Shown here one piece after another: positions 141 through 51,247 of a DNA stretch of 51,247 nt (positions are counted from its first letter, which is position 1; each line of letters opens with the position of its first letter). The stretch is from positions 1-51,247 of the IMG/VR virus record IMGVR_UViG_3300005526_000002. The stretch is one strand, 5' to 3'. Below the pieces are notes generated by a model. The model saw only the letters and a program-made list of their open reading frames with translations, was not told where the DNA came from and searched no databases. The position numbers were made by a program, and so were the translations under genes. Source of the stretch: a virus.

Positions 141-755
141 ATGAAACCCATGGAAACCTATGACGTATTGCGCGAAGCATTTAGCTTTTTTAATACGGAA
201 CTATTCAACAATCGGTTATCCGATTGCATCATCCTGCTGCATCGCAAACGCGGCGCGAATGGTTACTTTTGGGCGGATCAATTTGGCCGCAACGGTTCCA
301 AAAAGACCTTTCACGAAATAGCGCTAAACCCGGAACAAATTCGGGCACGCCAACCGCGTGACACATTCGGCACATTGGCGCATGAAATGGTGCACCAATT
401 ACAGCAAGAGCATGGCACGCCACCTAAAGGCGCGTACCATGACCGGCAATGGGCTGGCATGATGAAAGAGATCGGCCTGCAACCGGACGACGGCAACGGC
501 AAGGAAACCGGCCGCAAAGTGTCACACAAGATTGTTGAGAACGGCCGTTTTGATGTGACGTTCAAGAAGTTTGAAAAGAAATATAATCTTGAATTGTTCG
601 GCACCATACCGCAAGGCAAGAAGGAAAAAGGCAAAACTTCAAAGTTTAAGTTTGAATGCCCGGATTGCGGTCAAAACGCATGGGCCAAGGAATGCGCCGC
701 GTTGATCTGCGGCGAGTGTGGCGATACCCAAATGCAAAGGAGTGACAGTCAATGA
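141..755 (+). CDS. SprT-like zinc metalloprotease
   Basis: A 204-residue SprT/Spartan-type protein. The zinc-binding HExxH motif is HEMVH at residues 81-85, a likely third ligand is His100 (GAYHDRQW), and a C-terminal zinc ribbon has Cys173/176 and Cys190/193. Cellular SprT proteins cleave DNA-bound proteins. In a phage this could clear DNA-protein crosslinks or host DNA-binding proteins, but the target is unknown. The ATG is preceded by GGAGACAGGCAA. The gene overlaps the next by 4 bases (ATGA), suggesting coupled translation. The family call is firm; the role is inferred. Confidence 0.85.
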   Translation: MKPMETYDVLREAFSFFNTELFNNRLSDCIILLHRKRGANGYFWADQFGRNGSKKTFHEIALNPEQIRARQPRDTFGTLAHEMVHQLQQEHGTPPKGAYHDRQWAGMMKEIGLQPDDGNGKETGRKVSHKIVENGRFDVTFKKFEKKYNLELFGTIPQGKKEKGKTSKFKFECPDCGQNAWAKECAALICGECGDTQMQRSDSQ

Positions 756-1086: not shown

Positions 1087-1209
1087 ATGACCAAAACTCA
1101 GCAACAAACCATTTCAGGTTTGTGTATGGTACCGCGAAAGCGCTACCGCGAACTAGAAAAAACATGCTTATTTGTTTTTCAGTACATAGTTAACATTTTG
1201 CACAGATAA
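1087..1209 (+). CDS. Possible small protein (40 aa) running into the first iteron
   Basis: An ATG immediately after the previous stop opens a 40-codon frame whose 3' half crosses the first GCATGC-type repeat (1157-1174). The product is basic (VPRKRYRELEK), then hydrophobic. There is no clear ribosome site apart from coupling with the upstream gene, so it may be fortuitous reading through control DNA. Weak call. Confidence 0.3.
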   Translation: MTKTQQQTISGLCMVPRKRYRELEKTCLFVFQYIVNILHR

Positions 1210-1368
1210 AATTTTTGCCTTAGATGCTACCTGTGTAAAATTTTTTGGCTTTAGTAAATTAAAAAGCATGCTTATTGCTACCCATAGATAAAAAGCATGC
1301 TTATTGTCTAGCGCTTGTGGCTTGTTAGAAACAAAAAAGCATGCTTATTGTCTGTTAGAGGGCATCAC
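1120..1368 (+). promoter_or_regulatory. Upstream part of putative origin: four iterons and a TTGTT-AGA-AACAA box
   Basis: This holds TTGTGTATGGTACCGC (1120-1135), two AT-rich direct repeats around TAAAATTTTTT (about 1205-1250), four copies of the AAAAAGCATGCTTATTG palindrome (1157, 1261, 1290, 1334), and a perfect inverted repeat TTGTTAGAAACAA just before the fourth copy (1323-1335). AT-rich DNA beside a clustered iteron array in front of a replication gene is the usual layout of a replication origin. No DnaA box was recognised. Confidence 0.5.
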
Positions 1369-3454
1369 TTGAATTTATCAGACCTAGCGCGGCAACTCTA
1401 CGCGACACATGGGTTACTGCCTGTGCCGGTCACCGGCAAGATACCGCTAGGCGGTCTTGGCTGGGATACGCTCCCGCTTGAACGGCGGCTGGAATTGATG
1501 CCACAGGCCACAGGGTTAGGTATTCAATTCGGATTGACTTTCCATCCCAAGTTAGGCCCGGTTGAAGCACGCGCCATTGACGCTGATATAGACGATATCC
1601 CCGAGCGCAACGCCTTCGCCGCTGGCGTGCCGTTTGCTAATCAATGGCGATGGGGACGAAGACCGGCGACCATTGTCTTTACCGAACCGGGCATCATCAA
1701 ACAGGAAAAGTTTGGCAAGCACGTCCAGCTATTAGGCGCAGGCAAGCAAGCGGTATGGTTCGGCGCATACCAGAACAAGTCACCGTTGCCGAGCGATCCC
1801 GTCGAATATTGGTATGAAGGACCGAGCATATTTGAGCAATTGCCGCCGGTCATCCCGGCAGCCGCGTTGCGGACGGCACTCGAAACCGCGACCGGTTGCC
1901 AAACAAAAAGCATGCTTATTGAGAGCGCGTTATCGTCCGACGATATCGCCATGCTCACGCCGGAAAATATTTCTTTTTTCCGCGATGAGATAAAAAGCAT
2001 GCTTATTGATATACAGCACAGCCCAACAGGATCAGGGCGCGGAAACAAACTGCACCATCTAGGTGTCAAGTATGGCGCGTTGATTAAAGCCAGCGGGACC
2101 GCGCCGACGCTCGCGGACGCGGCGCACATTTCGCCCGATTACGTCCCCTTTGAAATAAAAAAGCATGCTTATTTGGAAGATATCGGACGCATAGCCGAAG
2201 ACGCATTCATATCATTACCGGGCACGTTAGGCGCGGGAGACAAACGCGATTTCGCTCGCGGTGTCGGCGCATCGAAAGGCTACGGCCAAGTCATCACGCT
2301 TGAGAAACAAAAGCATGCTTTATTGATGCCAACCGGCCGCGCACATGCCGGGCAGACTGCGACCGATTTGCTCAAGTTGAACATGCCGCCAATGAGCTAT
2401 CTGGTGGACAGGTTCTTGCCTGATACTGGCTGCATCATACTGGCTGGCAAGCCCAAGGTAGGCAAAGGCTGGATCATCATGGACCTAGCCTTGCAAGTGA
2501 TCGAAGGCGGCGTATTTTGGGGGCAGCGTGCCCGGCAGGGCGGTGTTCTCATGTACATGATGGAAGACGGACCGCGCCGCATTACCGAACGCTTGCGCAT
2601 GATCCATCCCGGCGTATTCGGTGTTGAAGCCGCGCAGCTACGCTTCCGCTATTCCGCAGACGGACCATTCTATGTGGACAGCAACGGCACTGGTTCGTTG
2701 GTAACCGATATTGAAAAACATCTGGCGGATTTCAAGAATATTCGGCTGGTCGTGGTGGACGTGCTGCAACGTGTGCGTGGTACCGTGGAAAGAAGCGATA
2801 ACGCTTATCAGGTCGATTACAAGGTTGTCGCAGCGTTGCAGAAACTTGCCGTGCAGAATTCCGTTCTTATCTTGGTCGTTCACCATACCAAGAAAGGCAA
2901 GGTTGACGACGCCATAGACGGCATTAGCGGTTCGTTCGGTATCATAGGCGCAGCCGATGGTGCTATCATTGTTGGCAAGGAAGGCGAGGTTATGCGCGCC
3001 CAATCAACCATGCGCGATATTCCCGATTTTGAATTTGATCTGGTAAAAGAGGAAGGCAATCCAATGTGGAAACCCGCACAGGGCGCTATGGAAGCGCTTG
3101 GAACGAGCATGAAACCCAATGCGGTGTTGCATGCGCTGTTGGCAGCGGCATGCGAATTGAATACCGGTGACGTGGCTATCCGCGCCAAAATATCGGAAGC
3201 AACGACTGCGGTCTATCTAAGCCGCTTGGTCAAGTCAGGTCAAGCCACCAGAACCGCGCGCGGTTTCTACAAAGCCACCGGCATCCCGGCGCGCGACCGC
3301 ATTGAAGGCGTCAAGGACGTGATAAAAAGCATGCTTTTAACACCAGTCACGGACGAAATAGAAGCCAAATACGCACCGAAGGGCGCACCGGATGGCGCAA
3401 CGTTCATGGCTATGACCGACAAGGTGCTATCGGAAATAAAAGCATGCTTTATTG
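1157..3454 (+). repeat. Ten iteron-like palindromes, consensus AAAAAGCATGCTTATTG
   Basis: Copies begin near 1157 (variant AACATGCTT), 1261, 1290, 1334, 1905, 1992, 2158, 2309, 3324 and 3438, all in the same orientation. Nine retain the perfect palindrome AAGCATGCTT. They are usually preceded by GATA or GAAA(C/T) and followed by TTATTG or TTTATTG. Copies from 1905 on lie inside the primase-helicase gene in all three codon phases, encoding KSMLI, KKHAY or KACFI. I found none elsewhere in the genome. Conservation of DNA rather than protein implies a DNA-level role, most simply initiator-binding iterons. Confidence 0.85.
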
Positions 3455-3600
3455 GCGAAAAAAAAGCATTGGACGCCTTGAAATCTCGCGGGCTTGTGGT
3501 ATATAATAGCGATACCGCTTGGTTGATTGGTTCGGAATGGCAAACGAAACATCAAACCCAATATGCAAACCCGTTCGCAATGAGGATGCCATGGCAATGA
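1369..3600 (+). CDS. Primase-helicase: Prim-Pol domain fused to RepA-like AAA ATPase
   Basis: A 743-residue replication protein. The N-terminal Prim-Pol-like domain has LLPVPVTGKIPL and the acidic pair in AIDADID (about residues 69-75). A RecA/RepA-type hexameric helicase ATPase domain follows, with Walker A AGKPKVGKG (about 359-367), Walker B in RLVVVDVL and a sensor-like LVVHHTK. This pairing is typical of self-priming plasmid and phage replicators. I chose TTG at 1369 because AGAGGG lies six bases upstream. A TTG at 1315 extends the frame but has no ribosome site. Oddly, six iterons interrupt the coding sequence and add peptides such as KSMLI. Confidence 0.85.
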   Translation: MNLSDLARQLYATHGLLPVPVTGKIPLGGLGWDTLPLERRLELMPQATGLGIQFGLTFHPKLGPVEARAIDADIDDIPERNAFAAGVPFANQWRWGRRPATIVFTEPGIIKQEKFGKHVQLLGAGKQAVWFGAYQNKSPLPSDPVEYWYEGPSIFEQLPPVIPAAALRTALETATGCQTKSMLIESALSSDDIAMLTPENISFFRDEIKSMLIDIQHSPTGSGRGNKLHHLGVKYGALIKASGTAPTLADAAHISPDYVPFEIKKHAYLEDIGRIAEDAFISLPGTLGAGDKRDFARGVGASKGYGQVITLEKQKHALLMPTGRAHAGQTATDLLKLNMPPMSYLVDRFLPDTGCIILAGKPKVGKGWIIMDLALQVIEGGVFWGQRARQGGVLMYMMEDGPRRITERLRMIHPGVFGVEAAQLRFRYSADGPFYVDSNGTGSLVTDIEKHLADFKNIRLVVVDVLQRVRGTVERSDNAYQVDYKVVAALQKLAVQNSVLILVVHHTKKGKVDDAIDGISGSFGIIGAADGAIIVGKEGEVMRAQSTMRDIPDFEFDLVKEEGNPMWKPAQGAMEALGTSMKPNAVLHALLAAACELNTGDVAIRAKISEATTAVYLSRLVKSGQATRTARGFYKATGIPARDRIEGVKDVIKSMLLTPVTDEIEAKYAPKGAPDGATFMAMTDKVLSEIKACFIGEKKALDALKSRGLVVYNSDTAWLIGSEWQTKHQTQYANPFAMRMPWQ

Positions 3601-13834: not shown

Positions 13835-14098
13835 ATGACTGACGTTACCGTAATCGAAGCGCCTAAGAAAACGCCCCGCAAACCGCGCCCGAGCGAGATT
13901 GCGAAGAAAAAAGCAAAGGCGGTAAAGAAAGCCGTGAAGCGGCCGAACGGTCGCCCGTTGATGTATCCGGACAAGACCATTGTCCGCATGCCCAAGGGCT
14001 GGCTGAAGCGCATCAATGGCGCGTTAAAAGCCGACGAAGGTCAGGGCGATCTCATGCGGCTGGCAGTTGAAAAAGAATTGAAGACGCGGCGTAAGTAG
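13835..14098 (+). CDS. Basic DNA-binding-like protein (87 aa)
   Basis: A Lys/Pro-rich N-terminal arm (KKTPRKPRPSEIAKKKAKAV), then a strand-helix-helix region (KTIVRMPKGWLKRINGAL...DLMRLAVEKEL) compatible with a ribbon-helix-helix fold. Probably a small DNA-binding protein or regulator. The next, convergent gene starts at the very next base, leaving no room for a terminator. Confidence 0.6.
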   Translation: MTDVTVIEAPKKTPRKPRPSEIAKKKAKAVKKAVKRPNGRPLMYPDKTIVRMPKGWLKRINGALKADEGQGDLMRLAVEKELKTRRK

Positions 14099-41981: not shown

Positions 41982-42368
41982 GTGAAAAAGTCACAAAAAA
42001 CATACCTTTACCGGCATTTTGATGCTTCTGGCGTCTTAATTTACGTAGGAGCAACTTGGAACCCGGCATTACGTGACCGCGTACACGCAAAAGAAAGTCA
42101 GTGGTATCGCTTAGTCGCGTCCACCACTTTAGAAGTTTATCCTAATGTCGAAGCAGCGGCAGAAGCTGAAATTATCGCTATCGAAAAAGAACACCCTTTA
42201 TTCAATAAACGTGAAGGTGGTGTTGGGTTACGAAAAGATCGTGAACAGACGACAGTATTATCTTTTCGCATAAGTATCACAGAAGCCGATGCGCTTGACA
42301 AAGTAGCAAAACGATTACGCATTAATCGTACTGATATGCTAAGACGTTTACTTAGAAACCTAAAATAA
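41982..42368 (+). CDS. GIY-YIG nuclease domain fused to ribbon-helix-helix domain
   Basis: 128 residues. Residues 7-78 follow the GIY-YIG fold: TYLYRHFD, LIYVGATWNP, Arg31/Arg33, and AIEKEHPLFN with Glu70 and Asn75. Residues about 90-126 (TTVLSFRISITEADALDKVA, then RINRTDMLRRLL) look like an RHH DNA-binding domain. The fusion could be a site-specific endonuclease or an autoregulated homing-type enzyme. GTG start; expressed from the promoter at 41922. Confidence 0.75.
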   Translation: MKKSQKTYLYRHFDASGVLIYVGATWNPALRDRVHAKESQWYRLVASTTLEVYPNVEAAAEAEIIAIEKEHPLFNKREGGVGLRKDREQTTVLSFRISITEADALDKVAKRLRINRTDMLRRLLRNLK

Positions 42369-49949: not shown

Positions 49950-50396
49950 ATGACACTTCCGACAATTTATCAACCAGCACGTTTCGAGTTGTTAGAAATA
50001 GCAGGCGCAGGGGCGAAAGGTCTAAAGCAGCCTGCACGCGAATTGATGCCGATCAAACGCGAAATGTTAGACATGAATGACCATGCGGCCGAACTGGTAC
50101 TAGACGCATGTTACATGCTGTTTGCCGCGATCCTTAGCTATGAAGGCGCGTTGATGACACAGCGCAAGGCAAAGCGCCATGACGACGCTGTGACACTCGT
50201 TCAAGCACGCATCGAAGCAGGCCGAGCGGAAGGCGTCGTCTGTAGCCTATTCTATGGCCCATGTGCACAATTGATCCTTGAGGCAATGAACCGCGCGCCC
50301 ATCGCATTCAATGGTCTTGCCAAGGGTTCGCCAAAGCTGAAAATAATTGACCGGTGTCAGCTTGCAATTGCATCTCGCGGTAAAGCCGCTCAATGA
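49950..50396 (+). CDS. Hypothetical protein (148 aa)
   Basis: Starts MTLPTIYQPARFELLEIAGA, with AAGG upstream. Largely helical (LVLDACYMLFAAILSYEGAL; VTLVQARIEAGRAEG). No known family. Its last 89 bases are antisense to the RHH regulator gene, so the two mRNAs can pair. Confidence 0.5.
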   Translation: MTLPTIYQPARFELLEIAGAGAKGLKQPARELMPIKREMLDMNDHAAELVLDACYMLFAAILSYEGALMTQRKAKRHDDAVTLVQARIEAGRAEGVVCSLFYGPCAQLILEAMNRAPIAFNGLAKGSPKLKIIDRCQLAIASRGKAAQ

Positions 50397-51172: not shown

Positions 51173-51247
51173 ATGTTTAGACTTCAAGCGTTACAAGTTG
51201 GCGGTTATTGGTCAACGGTTCTGGAACTTGCTTCGGAACGTGAAGCA
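51173..51247 (+). CDS. Small hypothetical protein, 5' part of origin-spanning gene
   Basis: ATG 51173, preceded by GGGAGACAGGCAA, opens the 44-codon gene that continues at position 61 of the window (bases 1-60 repeat 51188-51247). Control elements GGTACC (51130-51135) and AGCGTTATCG (51145-51154) lie directly upstream. First gene of the early plus-strand operon; no recognised domain. Confidence 0.65.
   Translation, partial: MFRLQALQVGGYWSTVLELASEREA
51188..51247. repeat. Terminal redundancy, copy 2
   Basis: Exact copy of positions 1-60; see the first entry. It marks where the circular molecule was opened. Confidence 0.9.

Follow-up and report, generated by a model that had tools for sequence, protein, structure and literature searches.

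The locus described here raises the question of why one short palindrome should recur, in a single orientation, upstream of a primase-helicase (PH) gene and again inside that gene in all three codon phases. The window, that is the whole stretch of 51,247 nucleotides analysed (IMG/VR virus record IMGVR_UViG_3300005526_000002, positions 1 to 51,247), ends in a 60-bp direct terminal repeat (51188–51247) of positions 1–60. The map is therefore circular and complete, at 51,187 bp, and the array is unique in it. The repeated unit is the 10-bp dyad AAGCATGCTT, with nine exact copies starting at positions 1264, 1293, 1337, 1908, 1995, 2161, 2311, 3327 and 3440, and a tenth copy (core at 1160) that has decayed to AAACATGCTT. 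The first-pass annotation of this DNA had reported ten same-orientation copies of a 17-mer confined to 1157–3454, and had held that many further copies elsewhere in the genome would speak against its proposal. The confinement stands for nine exact cores and one decayed core, as a scan of the whole 51-kb window found no AAGCATGCTT outside that interval. The core array is likewise real; however, the full 17-mer is exact in five copies only (1261, 1290, 1334, 1905 and 1992), and the copy at 1157 has the altered core given above. The copies at 2308 and 3437 contain one additional T (AAAAGCATGCTTTATTG) and the copy at 3324 ends in TTTTAA. With up to three mismatches allowed on both strands, the 17-mer yields 15 matches against 0.31 expected, and the maximum in 100 shuffles was 3. 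These shuffles, together with the codon comparison among homologues described below, exclude chance or codon bias as the source of the array.

All ten sites are on the plus strand. Four precede the PH gene: the decayed copy AAAAAACATGCTTATTT at 1157–1173 and exact 17-mers at 1261–1277, 1290–1306 and 1334–1350, the last directly 5' of a Shine-Dalgarno-like GAGGG. The PH gene (1369–3600, plus strand, 743 residues) probably starts at the TTG at 1369, downstream of this GAGGG, and with that start the initial count of four copies before the gene and six within it, in all three phases, is borne out. The in-gene cores fall in phase 2 at 1908, 1995 and 3327 (sites 1905–1921 and 1992–2008, both read as KSMLI, and 3324–3340, read as IKSMLL), in phase 0 at 2161 and 2311 (2158–2174, KKHAY; 2308–2324, QKHALL) and in phase 1 at 3440 (3437–3453, IKACFI). 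Among the eight homologous genes compared, the site at 1905 is common to six, that at 1992 to five, that at 2158 to four and those at 2308 and 3324 to three each, and the site at 3437 occurs in the window only. Neighbouring dyads are 24–46 bp apart and the others are far apart. Additional repeats are present in this genome: ATGGTACCGCGAAA occurs twice, exactly, 5' of the array (902–915 and 1126–1139), and the palindromes CGATATCG (10 copies) and CGGTACCG (8 copies) are over-represented genome-wide.

Residues 331–510 of PH form an AAA_25/RecA-like helicase core with a distant match to Twinkle and DnaB. The N-terminus appears PrimPol-like from our reading of the homologue alignment, which shows an invariant DxD and other features; a Pfam search of this region gave no PrimPol match. 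The C-terminal residues 583–720 are predicted to comprise two helix-helix-helix-strand-strand units, resembling tandem winged helices, in a low-confidence model (mean pLDDT of 46 for the poorly modelled PH structure). The replication set of the window includes a SNF2-type helicase, a DUF2800 nuclease, an Enc34-type SSB and a DNA polymerase A; the window also encodes the virion set of a tailed phage. The segment upstream of PH (1150–1350) is AT-rich and has four copies inside it; at window sizes of 100 and 150 bp, the AT content of the genome peaks in windows that start within it. A promoter search in the window array gave no convincing candidate. In the window, cumulative GC skew reaches its minimum 2.7 kb from the centre of the array, and in six other genomes at a distance of 1.2–9 kb; this measure is confounded by gene orientation and is only suggestive of a replication start in the array.

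The PH gene was compared with seven homologues (55–59% identical), located via the polymerase and via a PH protein search. The codon alignment of the eight genes contains eight in-gene site positions and 26 site instances, and each homologue carries a different subset. Homologues that lack a site have the same length there and other residues (AKSMLF/EQRNIF; IKSMLL/LKRCPK; KKHALL/AKNPLV). Length varies at just three places: by one codon at column 191, by one codon next to the column-282 site, and in the C-terminal tail, which is variable in one homologue. According to this alignment, sites come and go one at a time through substitutions that keep the length, at columns that tolerate change, and the peptides KSMLI, KKHAY and KACFI, which had been taken for inserts, are not insertions. 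For residues that two homologues have in common at a shared site, 123 of 124 comparisons show the same codon, versus 46% at identical residues elsewhere, which indicates that selection acts at the DNA level. The first-pass annotation had offered selection or propagation at the DNA level as the cause of the preserved DNA; the codon identity and the confinement of the array to one locus support selection, whereas the gap-free columns speak against in-frame propagation. One-mismatch versions of the dyad are almost missing around the arrays, as if the exact dyad alone functions. One site in L224 now reads AAGAGCATGCTCTT, altered on both dyad halves.

Five to nine sites were counted for eight of eight PH genes (the window and the seven from the protein search); the position of the sites is free and their number is kept. 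Three to six exact copies lie upstream of PH in six of the eight genomes. The other two, G012 and G015, have no upstream copy in the 700 nt 5' of PH, even with up to two mismatches, and carry four and six in-gene copies, respectively, plus one copy 3' of the gene. This restriction to sites in or after PH argues against a plain promoter operator and is the layout that an origin-type array predicts. Two relatives, G013 (a 34-kb fragment) and G014, contain neither AAGCATGCTT nor a window-type PH and retain homologous polymerase (57–63%), helicase and virion genes. Of the 29 window genes that all five complete array-bearing relatives share, four are lacking in both G013 and G014: the SprT-like gene (141–755, plus strand), PH, the gene for an 87-residue basic protein (13835–14098, plus strand) and a 148-residue ORF (49950–50396, plus strand). 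The motif-less relatives possess another dyad, GTTTAAAC (often CGTTTAAACG), with 15 copies in G013 (L219, L288) and 16 in G014 (L220, L289, L290), where about 0.6–0.7 are expected. These copies are spread, two of those in G013 lie directly 3' of TTGACA, and they resemble scattered operators or stoperators. A second palindrome, TGGTATACTGTATACCA (three copies in L224), and a repeated GATTGCGYTATCG are found at about 2430–2680 in L224, L222 and L225, just 5' of or among the AAGCATGCTT copies.

The likeliest reading, which we hold at about an even chance, is that the dyads act as iterons like those of lambda and belong to a replication-control region integrated in the initiator gene. The PH gene would probably also function as a docking array, which most likely would belong to the replication origin. 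The strict 10-bp dyad with its A/T flanks would provide the sites for a dimeric, sequence-specific DNA-binding protein, and the array would mark a replication-control region overlapping the gene of the presumed initiator PH. The initiator or a small phage partner would bind the sites before and inside the PH gene, open the adjoining AT-rich segment and load the helicase-primase, and PH expression may also be dampened when the sites are occupied. PH itself could be the binder, via its predicted C-terminal tandem winged helix, and would unite helicase, presumed primase and predicted DNA-binding parts in one protein. An origin of this kind fits the co-inheritance of the array with PH, the AT-rich neighbourhood and the loss of all upstream copies in two relatives. 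Perfect short dyads are commoner in repressor operators than in plasmid iterons, which counts against iterons, as do two features of other lineages described below: the dyad does not track the primase, and in several phages the sites are scattered before early genes.

The multi-part make-up of PH, as presumed and predicted here, is similar to that of the alpha protein of phage P4, in which a primase and a helicase are joined to a winged-helix domain that lies at the C-terminus and recognises repeats at the P4 origin. However, the P4 alpha helicase belongs to SF3 and that of PH is AAA_25/RecA-like, and the sites of P4 are not known to be strict dyads or to occur in all frames of the alpha gene. 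The nearest precedent for the array is the lambdoid origin, in which sites and an AT-rich stretch lie at the initiator gene. Ori-lambda is located within the middle of gene O and consists of iterons, the initiator sites, and an AT-rich stretch; lambda has four iterons and Stx phages have six, and the extra iterons lengthen O, by 13 residues for two (PMC7466680). The window resembles this arrangement in its near-identical sites in and beside the gene of the putative initiator, in DNA kept beyond the needs of the protein, as the codon identities indicate, and in an adjoining AT-rich region. The last is also present in four other complete genomes (near-array AT rank fraction ≤0.005) and is weaker in G009 (0.054). 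Unlike the lambdoid iterons, the sites of the window are strict dyads distributed over 2.3 kb, upstream of the gene and within it in three codon phases, that arose by substitution and do not lengthen the protein, and the gene encodes a primase-helicase rather than an O-type loader.

Clearly less probable, but a serious contender, is an operator array, in which a small phage regulator, perhaps the 87-residue protein, would attach to the dyads in dimeric form and repress or time the early or replication operon, with the in-gene sites acting as roadblocks or looping sites. The short strict dyad with its A/T flanks suits such a regulator, and sites often lie directly 5' of early-gene Shine-Dalgarno sequences. 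Every one of the eight array genomes in the family has the 87-residue gene, whose product keeps a putative DNA-contact strand (T-x-V-R-M-P) invariant, and both motif-less relatives lack the gene. In the C-terminus (KTIVRMPKGWLKRI...) this strand is followed by two helices and a GRP tail, and from this sequence pattern we assign the protein as a candidate ribbon-helix-helix (RHH)-like binder; searches of Pfam, PHROGs and PDB returned no match, and a Foldseek search with a low-confidence model was also empty. MetJ- and Arc-type RHH operators are multi-copy short palindromes read by small dimeric proteins, and MetJ-type proteins bind repeated 8-bp dyads, the Met boxes being abutting units of this length. 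The dyads of the window, in contrast, are 24–46 bp or farther apart and lie mostly in coding sequence, although a small candidate protein is encoded. G012 and G015 keep the 87-residue gene and four to six in-gene copies yet lack the upstream copies, so that overlap with a promoter is not seen in two homologues, nor at a convincing promoter in the window. Moreover, the 87-residue family is missing from array phages unrelated to the window.

In the motif-less relative G014, a 165-residue protein (L289:10358–10855, minus strand) shares the N-terminal PPRKPRPSEIAKK stretch of the 87-residue protein and has a different RHH-like C-terminus (ERVDMKLSKPEKKALVALAKK...), which suggests a swap of the recognition domain. 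A further small protein of the window (41982–42368) matches GIY-YIG weakly and has an RHH_1 domain at its C-terminus; an RHH_1 search across records showed that this domain is not a common denominator.

The dyad is not restricted to relatives of the window. Viral stretches were scanned for two dyads within 24–54 bp of each other, and AAGCATGCTT pairs were found in 73 stretches, 47 of them with at least three copies in 1.5 kb. The same-composition control palindromes ACAGATCTGT and TTGCATGCAA gave 10 stretches (one with three copies) and 7, respectively. Of 40 records searched whole, 38 had a match, with totals of 3–10 copies, and the reversed pattern matched in one record only. The listed copy positions are mostly clustered, with outliers in a few records. 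The 173 sites of 28 records have AAA and TTT flanks and a commonest spacing of 24–29 bp; 61 are intergenic and 43, 29 and 40 fall in coding phases 0, 1 and 2 of mechanically called ORFs. The GC content of the dyad-bearing phages ranges from 33 to 66%. In at least nine unrelated lineages the dyad lies within about 4 kb of PrimPol, VapE, DUF3987 or AAA_25 helicase genes, sometimes in-gene (G007 has two sites within its own primase-helicase gene), and the replication-gene types near arrays comprise VapE, DUF3987, DUF5906, D5_N and AAA_25. The sites of L055, G004 and G022 are scattered 5' of early genes. The named phages NP1 (a Pseudomonas phage), HD01, R7M, MMDA13 and Iggy have primases 46–53% identical to those of array phages and contain no copy of the dyad. 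Possession of the array is therefore not tied to any one primase family. An all-against-all search found no gene common to all array phages, and one shared phage DNA-binding gene was not found either, including in the contrast with NP1, R7M and HD01.

PH genes accompany 11 of 34 array loci and 0 of 17 control loci (p = 0.006), a test that is biased because the queries were taken from array loci. In a Pfam scan, the control loci (L199–L208, L307–L313) contained DnaB, Rep3, Rep_O, replisome organiser, ParB and DnaA_N genes instead. This proximity to replication and partition genes implies that palindrome pairs may generally mark phage replication-control regions. Exact DnaA boxes (TTATCCACA) near arrays number 4 versus 0.38 expected, in three records only and none in the window; they lie among or beside AAGCATGCTT copies in L225 (G003), L041 and L091.

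The spread of one dyad across phages might be due to a host factor that they have in common, to a small regulator that is widely exchanged, or to convergence. We tentatively propose that AAGCATGCTT could be a replication-control code common to dozens of unrelated phages that differ in primase-helicase and in GC content. A single widespread factor would read it, and it would be written into coding sequence in whichever frame the protein tolerates. That the reader is a conserved host protein, which many unrelated phages recruit to a replication or early-control region, seems to us rather unlikely. The same dyad, flanks and 24–29-bp spacing in dozens of phages of widely different GC content and replication genes would be expected of a host factor, as would the lack of a single phage gene common to them, and close relatives of array phages with other hosts have no dyad. 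However, within the family of the window the motif tracks phage genes, a literature search found no conserved host factor with a AAGCATGCTT site, and most matches in bacterial genomes are either pairs whose flanks differ or perfect tandem repeats.

A partition or centromere-like array serving a phage-plasmid state is improbable. Repeated dyads on a circular genome would suit it, RHH proteins act as centromere binders in some plasmids, and one control palindrome array adjoined ParB; however, no ParA or ParB was found among the window proteins scanned (a subset of the ORFs), and the location inside PH would be left without explanation. Last, the in-frame spread of a mobile palindrome, which the first-pass annotation had likened to the Rickettsia elements (inserts of about 100–150 bp, scattered genome-wide in coding sequence with several frames tolerated), can be dismissed despite the identical DNA in three frames and the shared habit of palindromes in coding DNA, as the 10-bp sites lie at a single locus rather than across many genes, site-less homologues are equal in length apart from the few differences listed above, and the five most-shared positions hold copies at the same place in several homologues.

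The array provides a clean natural case of a putative DNA-binding code kept within coding sequence in three frames, and comparison of homologues reveals how sites come and go. The 10-bp AAGCATGCTT is a searchable signature for the candidate replication-control regions of many uncultured phages, and the candidate binders, the PH C-terminus and the 87-residue protein, make the question of an origin directly testable. Literature matches to the 10-mer seem to be primer or restriction-tail sequences (confirmed in one case). G004 (L012, L215, L312) carries arrays of both AAGCATGCTT and TTGCATGCAA, which suggests that its site is relaxed to a GCATGC core. In bacterial chromosomes (L112, L116, L119, L160, L168, L174, L175 and L192, and the Bradyrhizobium loci L132, L135, L147, L153 and L173), AAGCATGCTT pairs are embedded in longer dyads (about TGTAAAGCATGCTTTACA; ATACGAAGCATGCTTCGTAT) which resemble the operators of unrelated regulators.
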